This document shows, piece after piece, positions 1,859 through 7,056 of a DNA stretch of 48,133 nt. Below the pieces are notes generated by a model, which ran no database searches, was not told the origin of the DNA, and saw only the letters and a list, made by a program, of their open reading frames with translations. The translations under genes and the position numbers were made by a program. Origin of the DNA: Erysipelotrichia bacterium (GTDB lineage: Bacteria > Bacillota_I > Bacilli_A > Erysipelotrichales > Erysipelotrichaceae); assembly GCA_012800355.1 (NCBI GenBank), contig JAAZJL010000062.1, positions 1 through 48,133 of the forward strand. Reading direction: 5' to 3'. Each line of letters begins with the position of its first letter. Positions within the stretch are counted from its first letter, which is position 1.

Positions 1859-3259
1859 CTAATTACTTTCTTTCTTTTTATATTTTTTAGTTAAAACAAC
1901 TAATCCTAAACCAGATAGTATCATCATAGACGCAAAGACATTTTGATTAAACCTATCTCCTGTATCTGGAGTTAACGGTTTAGTCTCATAGCCAGCTACT
2001 AAACTATATTCACCTATCAAAGCATCATTTTGTAGAGTCGTAAACTCAATAACGCTTGGATTGGTCATACTCCAGCGATTATCACTATTATCTTCATACC
2101 AACCTATTATTAAATTCATATAAGGAGTAGTTTGTTTTGTATTCATCGAACTGGCAACTGGCAAATATAATTTACTGCCAGGATCAAAACCTAAAAAGTA
2201 TATATCTGATGCTCCATTAGTTGCTGTATTAAAAGCCACCAGTGAATTAGTAATCGTTAAATCGGTATAACTGGTAGAAATAGCTCCACCATGACTGCCA
2301 TACTCTGATGAAACTTTGTTATTTGTAATTACACTATTGTCAATTACAAGTGTCGATTCAAAGGCATAAATACCTCCACCTTCACATCCTACTTTATTTC
2401 CGATTATTTCATTACCCGAAATGTTAACATCAGAAATATTTACTGTTGACCTGTAAATAAACAAAGCGCACCCATTACCAGAACTATTAGTACTATTCAA
2501 GATAATTTTGTTGTTTATTATCTTACCACCAGTGATAGTTATATCACTGTTTTTAGATATGAGAACTGCTGAATGTATTGCCCAATCATTATCAGCAACA
2601 GGTGAATCTTGAACGGTATTACCACTTATCTCTCCACCAGACATATTAAATGTTGCATTATTGACAACTATCATTGCACAATCTGCATTTGTAGTTTTTG
2701 AAATAATGCAGTTTTTGATTGAGCCTCCATACATATTGAAAATCGATTCTGATCCAATATAGAATATAAAACCCTCATATTCAACAAGTGGTATCTCTCT
2801 GTCATATATCTCAACACCTTGATGCATATTTAAGATGCTGCCATTACTCACCAAAAACATACTGTCTGGAGAACCAGTTCCAGTATAACTGCCCTTTAAC
2901 TTCAAGATATTATTACCATCTTGTTGACCTAAAGTTAAGGTTGTTTTAGCAACAGCAGGATCATCAGAATAAACCTCAAAACCATAAATGTTGGTAATTT
3001 CATGTCCGTTACCCAGTATTGTAGTATTACCTCTTGTCAGTTCAATAGAATCCGTGGTTAAAATATCAATGTTAGCTTTTAAACTTATAATATAATCACT
3101 TTCTTCACCATTATTTATATCAGTAATTGCTTTCAGAAACTGTGTCCTATCATCAACATTAAAAACTACGGGTGCAGCTTTCAGCACTTTTGGTATTGAA
3201 CATAACATCATCAGAATAGTAATAATGATAAAAATTTTTCTTTTAAATTTACTATCCAT
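1859..3259 (-). CDS. secreted, wall-anchored parallel beta-helix (pectate-lyase-like fold) surface protein
   Basis: N-terminal signal peptide; repeated NxSGGxIxxNxxxx rungs; C-terminal TPDTGD + hydrophobic segment + KKYKKK tail resembling a sortase sorting signal. Confidence 0.65.
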   Translation of the reverse strand: MDSKFKRKIFIIITILMMLCSIPKVLKAAPVVFNVDDRTQFLKAITDINNGEESDYIISLKANIDILTTDSIELTRGNTTILGNGHEITNIYGFEVYSDDPAVAKTTLTLGQQDGNNILKLKGSYTGTGSPDSMFLVSNGSILNMHQGVEIYDREIPLVEYEGFIFYIGSESIFNMYGGSIKNCIISKTTNADCAMIVVNNATFNMSGGEISGNTVQDSPVADNDWAIHSAVLISKNSDITITGGKIINNKIILNSTNSSGNGCALFIYRSTVNISDVNISGNEIIGNKVGCEGGGIYAFESTLVIDNSVITNNKVSSEYGSHGGAISTSYTDLTITNSLVAFNTATNGASDIYFLGFDPGSKLYLPVASSMNTKQTTPYMNLIIGWYEDNSDNRWSMTNPSVIEFTTLQNDALIGEYSLVAGYETKPLTPDTGDRFNQNVFASMMILSGLGLVVLTKKYKKKESN

Positions 3260-3330
3260 AAAACAAACTACCTTTCAATATTTATTAATTTAATTATAAA
3301 GGATTTTCAATATTTCTGTAAATCATTATT

Positions 3331-3891
3331 TTATTCAACAATTAATAAACCTTCAAATTCTTTATTATATTGATACTTTAATCTTTCTTTTTGTTTTTCA
3401 CTTAAAGGATCTTCAAAACCATTATGCCCAGAAACTGTTCCAACATGAATTTTATATAGTTGTCCTATTTTTACATACATTACTGTTGGAAAAAAGAAAG
3501 AAAACTGTCCTTCTTCTAAACCTTCTTGATTATTGCCACAAAACTCACTAATTTGTTTCATCCCTTGATAATTTTCACTATTAATATCATTATGAAAATC
3601 TAAATAATAAATAGGCATTTCATTTTCAATTGATACCTCATTTAAAATAGGGACCACACAATTGCACCAAGGACAATCTTCATAACCAAAATACACAATG
3701 AAAGTTTCCTTGTTTTTAATTTTTTCTAGAACCTCAGCAACCGTAATATCATAAAACTGTTCACTGGCAAGTCCATCATAACCACTCATATCGGAAATGG
3801 TTCCTGTTGGTTTTTGATATTCAATTAATTTTTCTTTTTGACATCCAGATACTGTCAATAAAAATAACAACAAAATAACTATTTTTTTCAT
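3331..3891 (-). CDS. thioredoxin-fold lipoprotein (CPWC)
   Basis: VSGC lipobox; FIVYFGYEDCPWCNCVVPILNEV. Confidence 0.75.
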   Translation of the reverse strand: MKKIVILLLFLLTVSGCQKEKLIEYQKPTGTISDMSGYDGLASEQFYDITVAEVLEKIKNKETFIVYFGYEDCPWCNCVVPILNEVSIENEMPIYYLDFHNDINSENYQGMKQISEFCGNNQEGLEEGQFSFFFPTVMYVKIGQLYKIHVGTVSGHNGFEDPLSEKQKERLKYQYNKEFEGLLIVE

Positions 3892-4026: not shown

Positions 4027-6081
4027 CTAGTCTTCGTCATCTTCTTCAAGTCTTGCTTTAGCTGCAGCAATTACTTTATCTGCAACATCTTTTGGAGCTC
4101 TTTCATATCTTAAGAACTCTTGAACATAAGAACCATTACCTTGAGTCATACTTCTAAGTTCGGTAGCATAACTCATCATTTCTGCTTGTGGAACTTCAGC
4201 AACAATGACTGTTGTTTCTTCATCAATCGCATTATTTTCCATAATCATTCCTCTACGCTTTGAAAAGTCACCATAGATTGTTCCAACATAATCTGAAGGA
4301 ATTTGTACTTCTGCTCTAATAATTGGTTCAAGTAATGCTGGCTTAGCTTCTGGCATACCTTTTCTATATGCTAATCTAGCTGCTGATTTAAATGCTACTT
4401 CTTTTGAGTCAACTGGATGCATTGAGCCATCATATAAAGTAGCTTTAACCTGTACCACTTTAAATCCCGCTAGAACACCTTTGTTCATAGCTTCTCTTAG
4501 TCCTGACTCAACAGCTGGGAAGTAGTTTTTACTCACTGCTCCACCAACAATTTCTTCTTCAAAGACCATTTCATCTTGTTCAGGGTTTGGTTCAAATCTA
4601 ATCCAAACTTCACCGAATTGTCCTGCACCACCAGATTGTTTCTTATGCCTGCCTTGAGCTTCTGAAGTACCAGTAATTGTTTCACGATATTGAACTGTCG
4701 GTTCAGTTAAATCAACTTCAACTTTATATCTTGATTTTAATTTATTGACAATTATATCAATATGTTGATCACCAAGACCGTATAAAACTTGTTCTCTAGT
4801 CTCAGTATTATTAACTAATAACATACTCTTATCTTCACTAGCTAATCTTGATAAACCACTTGATAATCTATCTTCATCATTTCTTGTTTTTGGCCAAATT
4901 GCTTTTCCTAACATACCTTGTGGAAAATCAATAGGCTTGTACTGAATTGGATTAGCTTTTGTTGCTAAGGTATGGTTTACATCAGTATCTTGTAATTTTA
5001 AAATTGCTCCGATATCACCACATTCTAACCTGTCAACTTTTATTTGGTTTTTACCTCTAATTAAAACTAAAGAACCCATTTTTTCGTTTTCAGATTTATT
5101 AGAGTTATATAAAGGTGTATCTGAAGTTAATGTTCCACTCATTACTTTCACATATGAAGCTTGAGCAAAATTGTCACTAACTAATTTAAACACGAAAGCA
5201 CTAAAGTCTTCTTTGTTTGATGTTTTTACTTCTACACCATTGGCATCAGTAATCGTACCTTTTTCGGCATATGAAGGACAGTAATTGATGATTGTATCTA
5301 ATAAAGTATCAAGACCAACATTTGAAATTGCACTTCCACATAAAATAGGTCTAATACTGCCATCTCTTAAACCATGAGAAACACCAGCAATCATTTCTTC
5401 AGCAGTAAAATCTTCTTCCATTAAAAATTTTTCTGTTAAAGCATCATCAGTCATCGCAACTGCTTCACATAATTCAAAGTGACCAGTTTCAACTTGATCT
5501 ACAAAGTTTGCAGGGATTTCTGCATCCTTACCATTAATTGTTGCTTTTCTAGTAATAATATTTACTACACCTGTTGCTTTTCCACCATCCATAATAGGAA
5601 ATACCAGTGGCACAGCTTTACATCTTCTTTCAAGTTCAGCAACTGTTTTAACAAAATCAGCATGTTCTTCATCAACTCTGGTGACAAAGAAAATAACTGG
5701 TAAATTTTTAGCTAATGCTTGTCTGTAAGCCTTCATAGTACCAGATTGTACACCTTCTTTTGCACTAACAACGATTACTACTGAATCAGCTACTGCCAGT
5801 GCTGCAACCTGCTCACCAGCAAAGTCTACATAACCTGGTGTATCAATAAAGTTAACCTTATAATCTTTCCATTCAATTGGCACTAAAGAAGAATAAACTG
5901 TCATTCCTCTTTTAATTTCTTCTGCATCATAGTCAATGATACTGTTACCATCAACAGCTTTTCCAAAGCGATCGGTGATTTTATTGTTGTATAAAATCGA
6001 CTCTAACACTTCACTTTTTCCAGCGCCTGTATGACCTAGCACTGCAACATTTCTAATAAAATCAGTTGTATATACTTTCAT
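4027..6081 (-). CDS. elongation factor G-like GTPase paralogue (FusA2/EF-G-like type)
   Basis: P-loop GHTGAGKS, FIDTPGYVDF, EF-G domain III-V similarity (GSMHPVDSKEVAFKSA, RRGMI). Confidence 0.85.
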   Translation of the reverse strand: MKVYTTDFIRNVAVLGHTGAGKSEVLESILYNNKITDRFGKAVDGNSIIDYDAEEIKRGMTVYSSLVPIEWKDYKVNFIDTPGYVDFAGEQVAALAVADSVVIVVSAKEGVQSGTMKAYRQALAKNLPVIFFVTRVDEEHADFVKTVAELERRCKAVPLVFPIMDGGKATGVVNIITRKATINGKDAEIPANFVDQVETGHFELCEAVAMTDDALTEKFLMEEDFTAEEMIAGVSHGLRDGSIRPILCGSAISNVGLDTLLDTIINYCPSYAEKGTITDANGVEVKTSNKEDFSAFVFKLVSDNFAQASYVKVMSGTLTSDTPLYNSNKSENEKMGSLVLIRGKNQIKVDRLECGDIGAILKLQDTDVNHTLATKANPIQYKPIDFPQGMLGKAIWPKTRNDEDRLSSGLSRLASEDKSMLLVNNTETREQVLYGLGDQHIDIIVNKLKSRYKVEVDLTEPTVQYRETITGTSEAQGRHKKQSGGAGQFGEVWIRFEPNPEQDEMVFEEEIVGGAVSKNYFPAVESGLREAMNKGVLAGFKVVQVKATLYDGSMHPVDSKEVAFKSAARLAYRKGMPEAKPALLEPIIRAEVQIPSDYVGTIYGDFSKRRGMIMENNAIDEETTVIVAEVPQAEMMSYATELRSMTQGNGSYVQEFLRYERAPKDVADKVIAAAKARLEEDDED

Positions 6082-6096
6082 AATATATTTTTCCCC

Positions 6097-6768
6097 CTAA
6101 GTTAAAATTTTCTTTATTTCCTCATTACTTCCTTTAGTAATGTAATAGTTATAGGCTTTTCTGCCTTCTTTATCTTTAACATTTATATCAGCACCATTAT
6201 TTACCAAAAGCTTAATTAGTTCTTCAAACCCAGCATAAGCAGCTCTCATTAGTGCTGTACATCCCATCTCATCTTGCAAATCAATATTTGCACCACGTGA
6301 CAGCAGAACATCAATTACTGCAATATTTCCTGTTGAACATGCTTCCATTAAAGCAGTTCTACCTTTTTCATCTTGATCGTCAAGATTAGCTTTATATTGT
6401 AGTAACAATCTCACAATATCTACAAAGCCATAAAAACTTGCGCGCATTAGAGAATTATTACCTTGATAGTCAGCAGCATTTACATCTGCTCCAGCATCAA
6501 GTAGCATTTGAACTACCTCATAATACCCCTTTTGACAAGGTCCCATTATTGCTGTTTTTTCATGATAATCTCTTAGATCTACACTAGCACCACTATCCAA
6601 AAGTAGTCTAGTCATTTGAATTCTTCCTCTTTTAGCGCAGCGCATCAAGGCTGTTCTTTTTTGTTGGTTTTTTACATTGACATTTACACCATCTTCAATA
6701 GCTTTTTTTACAACATTTATATTATTATCAACTGCTGCATCAAAAAATACTTTTTCTAATTGGTCCAT
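6097..6768 (-). CDS. ankyrin-repeat protein
   Basis: Multiple ~33-aa ankyrin repeats (GRTALMEACSTGNIAVIDVLLSRGANIDLQD...). Confidence 0.9.
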   Translation of the reverse strand: MDQLEKVFFDAAVDNNINVVKKAIEDGVNVNVKNQQKRTALMRCAKRGRIQMTRLLLDSGASVDLRDYHEKTAIMGPCQKGYYEVVQMLLDAGADVNAADYQGNNSLMRASFYGFVDIVRLLLQYKANLDDQDEKGRTALMEACSTGNIAVIDVLLSRGANIDLQDEMGCTALMRAAYAGFEELIKLLVNNGADINVKDKEGRKAYNYYITKGSNEEIKKILT

Positions 6769-6810
6769 AAGCCTTTTTTCCTCCTATCTTTATAATTAAT
6801 TATTGTAAAT

Positions 6811-6840
6811 AAAAGACGCTTCCCATTAAGAAAGCATCTT
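6811..6840 (-). terminator. intrinsic terminator overlapping the 3' end of a leader ORF
   Basis: Minus RNA AGAUGCUUUC-UUAAU-GGGAAGCGUCUUUU: 10-bp stem (two G-U) followed by U-tract. Confidence 0.75.
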
Positions 6841-6930
6841 ATTTTTCCCTTTAGAGCTAAAAACCACCACCATATGGTGGCTAGATACTCCGCCAATTTG
6901 CGTACCATTAACAGCAAATATTTTATTCAT
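6826..6930 (-). CDS. 34-aa putative leader peptide (MNKIFAVNGTQIGGVSSHHMVVVFSSKGKNKMLS)
   Basis: ATG 9 nt after AAGGG SD-like sequence; preceded by TTGTAT-17-TAAAAT promoter; stop codon inside terminator loop; same strand as ankyrin/EF-G-like genes. Confidence 0.55.
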   Translation of the reverse strand: MNKIFAVNGTQIGGVSSHHMVVVFSSKGKNKMLS

Positions 6931-7056
6931 TTTAGCTGATCCCTTCTTCTAACTCTATTAGTATTTTACTATTTTTTGACCTTCAATACAAGTCATTTCT
7001 TGATTATGTAAAAGAAAATAGGTAAAATATATAAGGTGAGTATGGAGGTTTAATAA

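Follow-up and report, generated by a model that had tools for sequence, protein, structure and literature searches.

The locus analyzed here raises the question of whether a ribosome on a short leader open reading frame (ORF) decides whether a spare elongation factor G (EF-G) is made, and a comparison of related genomes indicates that it probably does. The window, i.e., the whole stretch of 48,133 nucleotides that was analyzed, comes from a draft genome of 1.48 Mb, in which it is contig C11, and the named relatives in the comparison are Erysipelotrichia MAGs. On the minus strand, a promoter, a Shine-Dalgarno sequence, a 34-codon ORF, an intrinsic terminator, an AGGAGG sequence, an ankyrin gene and an EF-G-like gene follow one another (Table 1), and all elements of this order claimed in the original prediction were present at their sites, including the leader stop codon TAA inside the 4-nt terminator loop UAAU. 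The palindrome CCACCATATGGTGG at positions 6880-6867 is the core of a mid-leader hairpin, and the T5 run that follows it (U5 in the RNA, 6863-6859) lies within the 3' side of this hairpin.

Table 1. Features of the ankyrin-EF-G locus in the window, listed in the direction of transcription.
Feature	Position (strand)	Detail	Evidence
Promoter TTGTAT-17-TAAAAT	6963..6991 (-)	TTGTAT 6991-6986, 17-nt spacer, TAAAAT 6968-6963	Sequence
Leader ORF Shine-Dalgarno-like site	6941..6945 (-)	AAGGG	Sequence
Leader ORF	6826..6930 (-)	34 codons, ATG 6930, TAA 6828-6826	Peptide MNKIFAVNGTQIGGVSSHHMVVVFSSKGKNKMLS
Mid-leader hairpin	6853..6891 (-)	GGAGU..GCCACC/GGUGGU..AGCUCU, palindrome inside	-17.1 kcal/mol
Intrinsic terminator hairpin	6813..6840 (-)	12 pairs, tail UUAUUU	-14.3 kcal/mol
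Ankyrin gene Shine-Dalgarno	6780..6785 (-)	AGGAGG	Sequence
Ankyrin-repeat protein	6097..6768 (-)	223 aa, ATG 6768	Pfam Ank families
EF-G paralog, probably EFG II type	4027..6081 (-)	684 aa, ATG 6081	NF009381, 815.8 bits (cut-off 583)

The RNA fold of the window's leader was unusually stable (z = -3.06, with none of 200 shuffles equally stable), and shuffling of this one leader produced a comparable ORF with its stop at the hairpin in 4.7% of cases. No known RNA family matched the leader at its gathering score; Phe_leader came closest, weakly, with 20.3 bits against 55.

The EF-G-like product was tried as a Tet ribosomal protection protein and rejected, scoring 316 bits against the tetracycline-protection model NF012153 with its cut-off of 775 bits. 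A second EF-G, as expected for the EFG II subfamily, is present in the genome, the canonical EF-G being encoded on contig C49 with 37% identity to the window paralog. In the motif table, the window paralog and its orthologs carry the G3 motif DTPGY in place of the canonical DTPGH, with Tyr standing where the catalytic His is expected, and loss of this His in translational GTPases lowers GTPase activity. A Bacteroides EF-G paralog is reported to have no GTPase activity in the title of a paper cited in PMC10994844. The G2 motif is mostly RGxS among the orthologs and RGMT in the window protein, and a Ser in G2 (xxxSx instead of RGITI) marks the EFG II subfamily (PMC3150367). Judged by its sequence, the window protein is probably an EFG II-type paralog. 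Its G4 guanine-specificity motif NKxD is replaced by TRVD, which departs from most of the family, as does RGMT. Downstream of the EF-G gene (1859-3891), a lipoprotein with a sub-threshold match to PedC/BrcD (thioredoxin-like) and a 466-aa protein with no family match are encoded. On contig C1 of the same genome (L003:748-3276, minus strand), the translation read by eye suggests an 842-aa Tet-like/EF-G-like GTPase with an apparent C-terminal NYN (YacP-like) nuclease region.

The EF-G paralog was found in 79 of 146 relatives at the threshold used, nearly all of them within the window's family, and the ankyrin gene lay directly upstream of it in every family locus with enough upstream sequence. 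Searched for by itself, the ankyrin gene was present in 94 of the 148 genomes taken from the order, all of the same family among the matches listed. At three matches from other families and three Clostridia homologs, no ankyrin gene was present upstream of EF-G and no leader was seen by eye. The pairing, unrecognised as described when first noticed, is a fixed feature of the family, and the operon defined here is conserved across about 50 genera with no describing paper found in the literature.

Upstream regions could be evaluated at 72 loci from 49 genera, all from draft genomes of which some are incomplete. A detectable terminator preceded the ankyrin gene in 66 of them, and in 63 of these 66 (46 genera) an ATG ORF of 17 to 47 codons, preceded by a Shine-Dalgarno sequence, ended between -12 and +19 nt of the stem start. 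Dinucleotide shuffles of the same 66 leaders gave 3.5 +/- 1.8 such cases. The distance from ATG to stem ranged from 55 to 133 nt (median 86). A scan of 396 kb of one related genome with 506 long ORFs returned the ankyrin leader and only two other matches, and the leader ORF was retained in five genomes of the window's genus. Inspection of exceptions showed an ORF with its stop near or in the hairpin at L042, L056 and L104, an ORF with a terminator that is weak at best at L101 and L102, and no leader at three loci (L077, L079 and L109). At L056, the leader and terminator are kept about 279 nt upstream of the ankyrin gene, with roughly 200 extra bases between. By eye, the leader ORF of L110 has no stop at the hairpin, continues across the terminator and stops only at the start codon of the ankyrin gene. 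Lack of conservation among relatives, one of the outcomes that had been named as fatal to the original prediction, was thus not encountered.

The leader peptide itself was hardly conserved. In eight same-genus pairs, its dN/dS was 0.60 compared to 0.05 for the ankyrin gene, and its dS was also low, 0.27 compared to 0.76, so that the constraint falls mostly on the frame and the nucleotides, not on the peptide. Between genera, the peptides are mostly unalike and unalignable, and no conserved stall peptide, regulatory codon run or motif shared across genera was found. With peptides so little constrained, ribosome position would count rather than peptide sequence. Within the window's genus, the leaders can be aligned, and there the ORF, the terminator and the core GCCACC/GGUGGU of the mid-leader hairpin were all retained, the terminator with compensatory changes among relatives. 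The alternative hairpin predicted at the palindrome is real, with a core invariant in seven sequences of two genera, but its alignment does not extend beyond the window's genus and a single related genus. It is a candidate RNA polymerase pause hairpin or, alternatively, an anti-antiterminator hairpin.

The leaders were also more structured than their shuffles (mean z -1.13 +/- 0.14). A TTTT run occurred at most 14 nt before the stem in 42 of 63 leaders, compared to 9.0 +/- 2.6 in shuffles and to only 3/80 and 1/15 gene-end terminators in two genomes. In the window, no U-tract directly precedes the stem; the T5 run is situated ~20 nt farther upstream, inside the 3' side of the mid-leader hairpin. 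The NusG-type pause motif TTNTTT was not enriched in the leaders (22 versus 29.4 expected). Leader pairing with either terminator arm showed no excess that would mark a family-wide antiterminator (mean z 0.06 and 0.00, s.e. 0.14).

Taken from sequence comparison, a family-wide translation-dependent attenuator is likely to be real, as the original prediction had proposed, with the ORF, the stop-at-stem geometry and the terminator recurring in 46 genera despite near-free divergence of the peptide. The best single mechanism, to which we give about an even chance, would be direct occlusion of the terminator of the ankyrin-EFG II operon by the ribosome in the manner of pyrBI and pyrE. By default, RNA polymerase would get ahead of the ribosome over the short leader, so that the terminator folds and transcription stops. 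A slowdown of polymerase at the mid-leader hairpin and at the U-tract before the stem could let the ribosome catch up, or the ribosome could alternatively linger on the stop codon; in both cases a ribosome at the stop would cover the 5' arm or the loop, block the hairpin and allow readthrough into the ankyrin and EF-G genes. The peptide would be irrelevant, and the location of the ribosome at the moment of terminator synthesis would decide. Translation of the leader ORF, polymerase pausing and terminator occlusion are what we infer from this layout and are not seen in the sequence as such. The leaders are short (55-133 nt before the stem), so coupling should depend on a pause, for which the mid-leader hairpin and the U-tract are candidates. 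If the footprint is assumed to extend 12 nt downstream from the first nucleotide of the stop, 3 nt or more of the 5' arm would be covered by a ribosome positioned there in 61 of 63 leaders. With the stop placed at the stem, slowing of a ribosome within the ORF should permit termination; slower ribosomes should therefore give less readthrough, and more would be expected if RNA polymerase or release at the stop is slowed. The physiological signal would probably be a shortage of NTPs or carbon, or delayed translation termination or recycling.

Effects of this kind have been reported elsewhere. When a stop codon was shifted to 5 bp ahead of a terminator, termination fell from ~90% to below 10%; this repression by ribosomes was lost once translation was removed, and amino-acid attenuators have their terminators >20 bp away from the leader gene (PMC4824070). 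In work cited in that paper, fusidic acid raised termination in vitro at a terminator 7 bp from a gene. According to PMC2784333, pyrE expression is believed to be set by where the rph stop lies with respect to the pyrE attenuator. In the UTP-sensitive pyrBI and rph-pyrE attenuators of enterobacteria, a short leader or upstream ORF likewise ends at or over an intrinsic terminator, an antiterminator is unneeded, the coupled ribosome blocks the terminator and pause elements time it, as we propose for the leader described here. They differ in phylum and in target, which here are the ankyrin gene and the EF-G paralog, and in that the stop here sits right at the stem or within the loop. UTP sensing, a feature of pyrBI and pyrE, would be no more than a possibility for the ankyrin-EF-G leader, and Bacillota are not normally coupled. 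Their classification as runaway, i.e., uncoupled, transcription (PMC13323073) raises doubt and counts against the occlusion reading; if occlusion operates, a pyrBI-like coupling-dependent attenuator would exist in a phylum classed as uncoupled. The stop-stem distance fell within [-3,+19] in 57 of 63 leaders compared to 29 of 80 ordinary gene ends of a related genome, and the two sets differed by a Mann-Whitney test (p = 6e-7) that is biased because the leaders were chosen for proximity. Overlap of stop and stem being common at ordinary gene ends, position alone is no proof of occlusion. The three loci with no leader, the read-through ORF of L110, the missing U-tract directly before the window's stem and a possible antiterminator in the window's genus likewise count against the occlusion reading.

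An unlikely alternative is a classical stalled-ribosome attenuator, in which a ribosome slowed in the ORF would free an antiterminator formed by GGAGUAUCU and the terminator 5' arm, the mid-leader hairpin would act as the anti-antiterminator, and translation inhibitors or a shortage of amino acids would switch the operon on. Such an antiterminator is possible in the window's genus, in which GGAGUAUCU and the 5' arm can form 8 bp; over seven sequences, 89% of cells were paired, compared to 36-50% when the segment was slid. With the terminator forbidden, this fold was the minimum free energy structure in L009 and L010, and a related fold appeared in L011, but in the window's own sequence the mid-leader hairpin was the minimum instead. 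No pair of the GGAGUAUCU pairing changed on both sides in the seven sequences, the mid-leader hairpin holds the same nucleotides, the antiterminator signal is absent family-wide, and the little conserved peptide shows neither a stall motif nor a codon run. The hflXr and vmlR switches, which serve antibiotic-response, ribosome-acting genes in Listeria and Bacillus subtilis (PMC6310831, PMC9226507), lend this reading some precedent. Together with bmrCD, these Bacillota attenuators resemble the locus in placing a leader ORF and a terminator before ribosome-acting or drug-export genes. They differ in responding to antibiotic-stalled ribosomes via antiterminators, for which the ankyrin-EF-G leader has neither a conserved stall peptide nor a family-wide antiterminator. 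Tet(M)-type ribosomal protection genes are similar in that a leader ORF and terminator precede a gene for an EF-G-like GTPase; the product here is EFG II-like rather than a Tet protection protein. Drug induction via ribosomes stalled on the leader in the erm or ABC-F manner, as first suspected, thus found no support, and the sign expected from occlusion, less readthrough with slow ribosomes, is opposite to it.

A sensor of stop-codon dwell, in which slow peptide release or ribosome recycling is the signal, ribosomes lingering on the leader stop hold the terminator open and the alternative EF-G is called when recycling runs short, appears still more doubtful. The stop lies at the stem in nearly all genomes, and according to PMC6989115 EF-G acts with RRF in ribosome recycling, but recycling by an EF-G of the window's type is presumed. 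Furthermore, the leader stops (TAA 37, TGA 17 and TAG 9; n = 63) have no uniform poor context, and the C-terminal Phe found in 20 of 63 leaders goes with the U-tract. In its widest form, a peptide-independent, family-wide switch that reads the dwell of the ribosome on the stop codon and turns on an alternative EF-G without the catalytic His, along with a dedicated ankyrin partner, has a low probability. If true, the translation motor would be under the control of a switch that senses translation termination, recycling or energy state, in a phylum thought to be without transcription-translation coupling. That the leader is an ordinary small gene or a chance ORF with its own terminator, the ankyrin and EF-G genes being reached only by leak-through or from a second promoter, is improbable: gene-end terminators in the clade often overlap stops, but these peptides are unalignable between genera, evolve at a dN/dS of 0.60 within genera, and have a placement that is far above shuffles and rare in the related genome.

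The widespread EFG II paralogs are poorly understood, and a switch tied to ribosome position, as in the favored occlusion reading, would tell when such a factor is needed. The conserved leader switch offers a testable handle on the role of these paralogs.

A possible further layer of control lies at the promoters. With the general cre consensus, cre-like sites matching at least 10 of 11 positions were found in the promoter regions of 27 of 63 leaders (0.27 expected), 10 of these 27 with 11/11 matches (0 expected), and they usually overlap the -35 or -10 element, e.g., in L043, L046, L048, L049, L054, L070 and L082. The best match in the window's own promoter region, 8/11, was not convincing and was not accepted as a cre site. 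Two LacI-family proteins are encoded in the window's genome, both below the CcpA cut-off, and the presence of CcpA there is uncertain. In many relatives, the cre-like sites suggest carbon catabolite control, parallel to the induction of Bacteroides EF-G2 (fusA2), likewise an EF-G paralog besides the canonical EF-G, by carbon limitation, as given in the available part of PMC6989115. EF-G2 differs in being driven by the activator BT4338/Cur at its promoter, and that part of the source mentions neither a leader attenuator nor an ankyrin partner.
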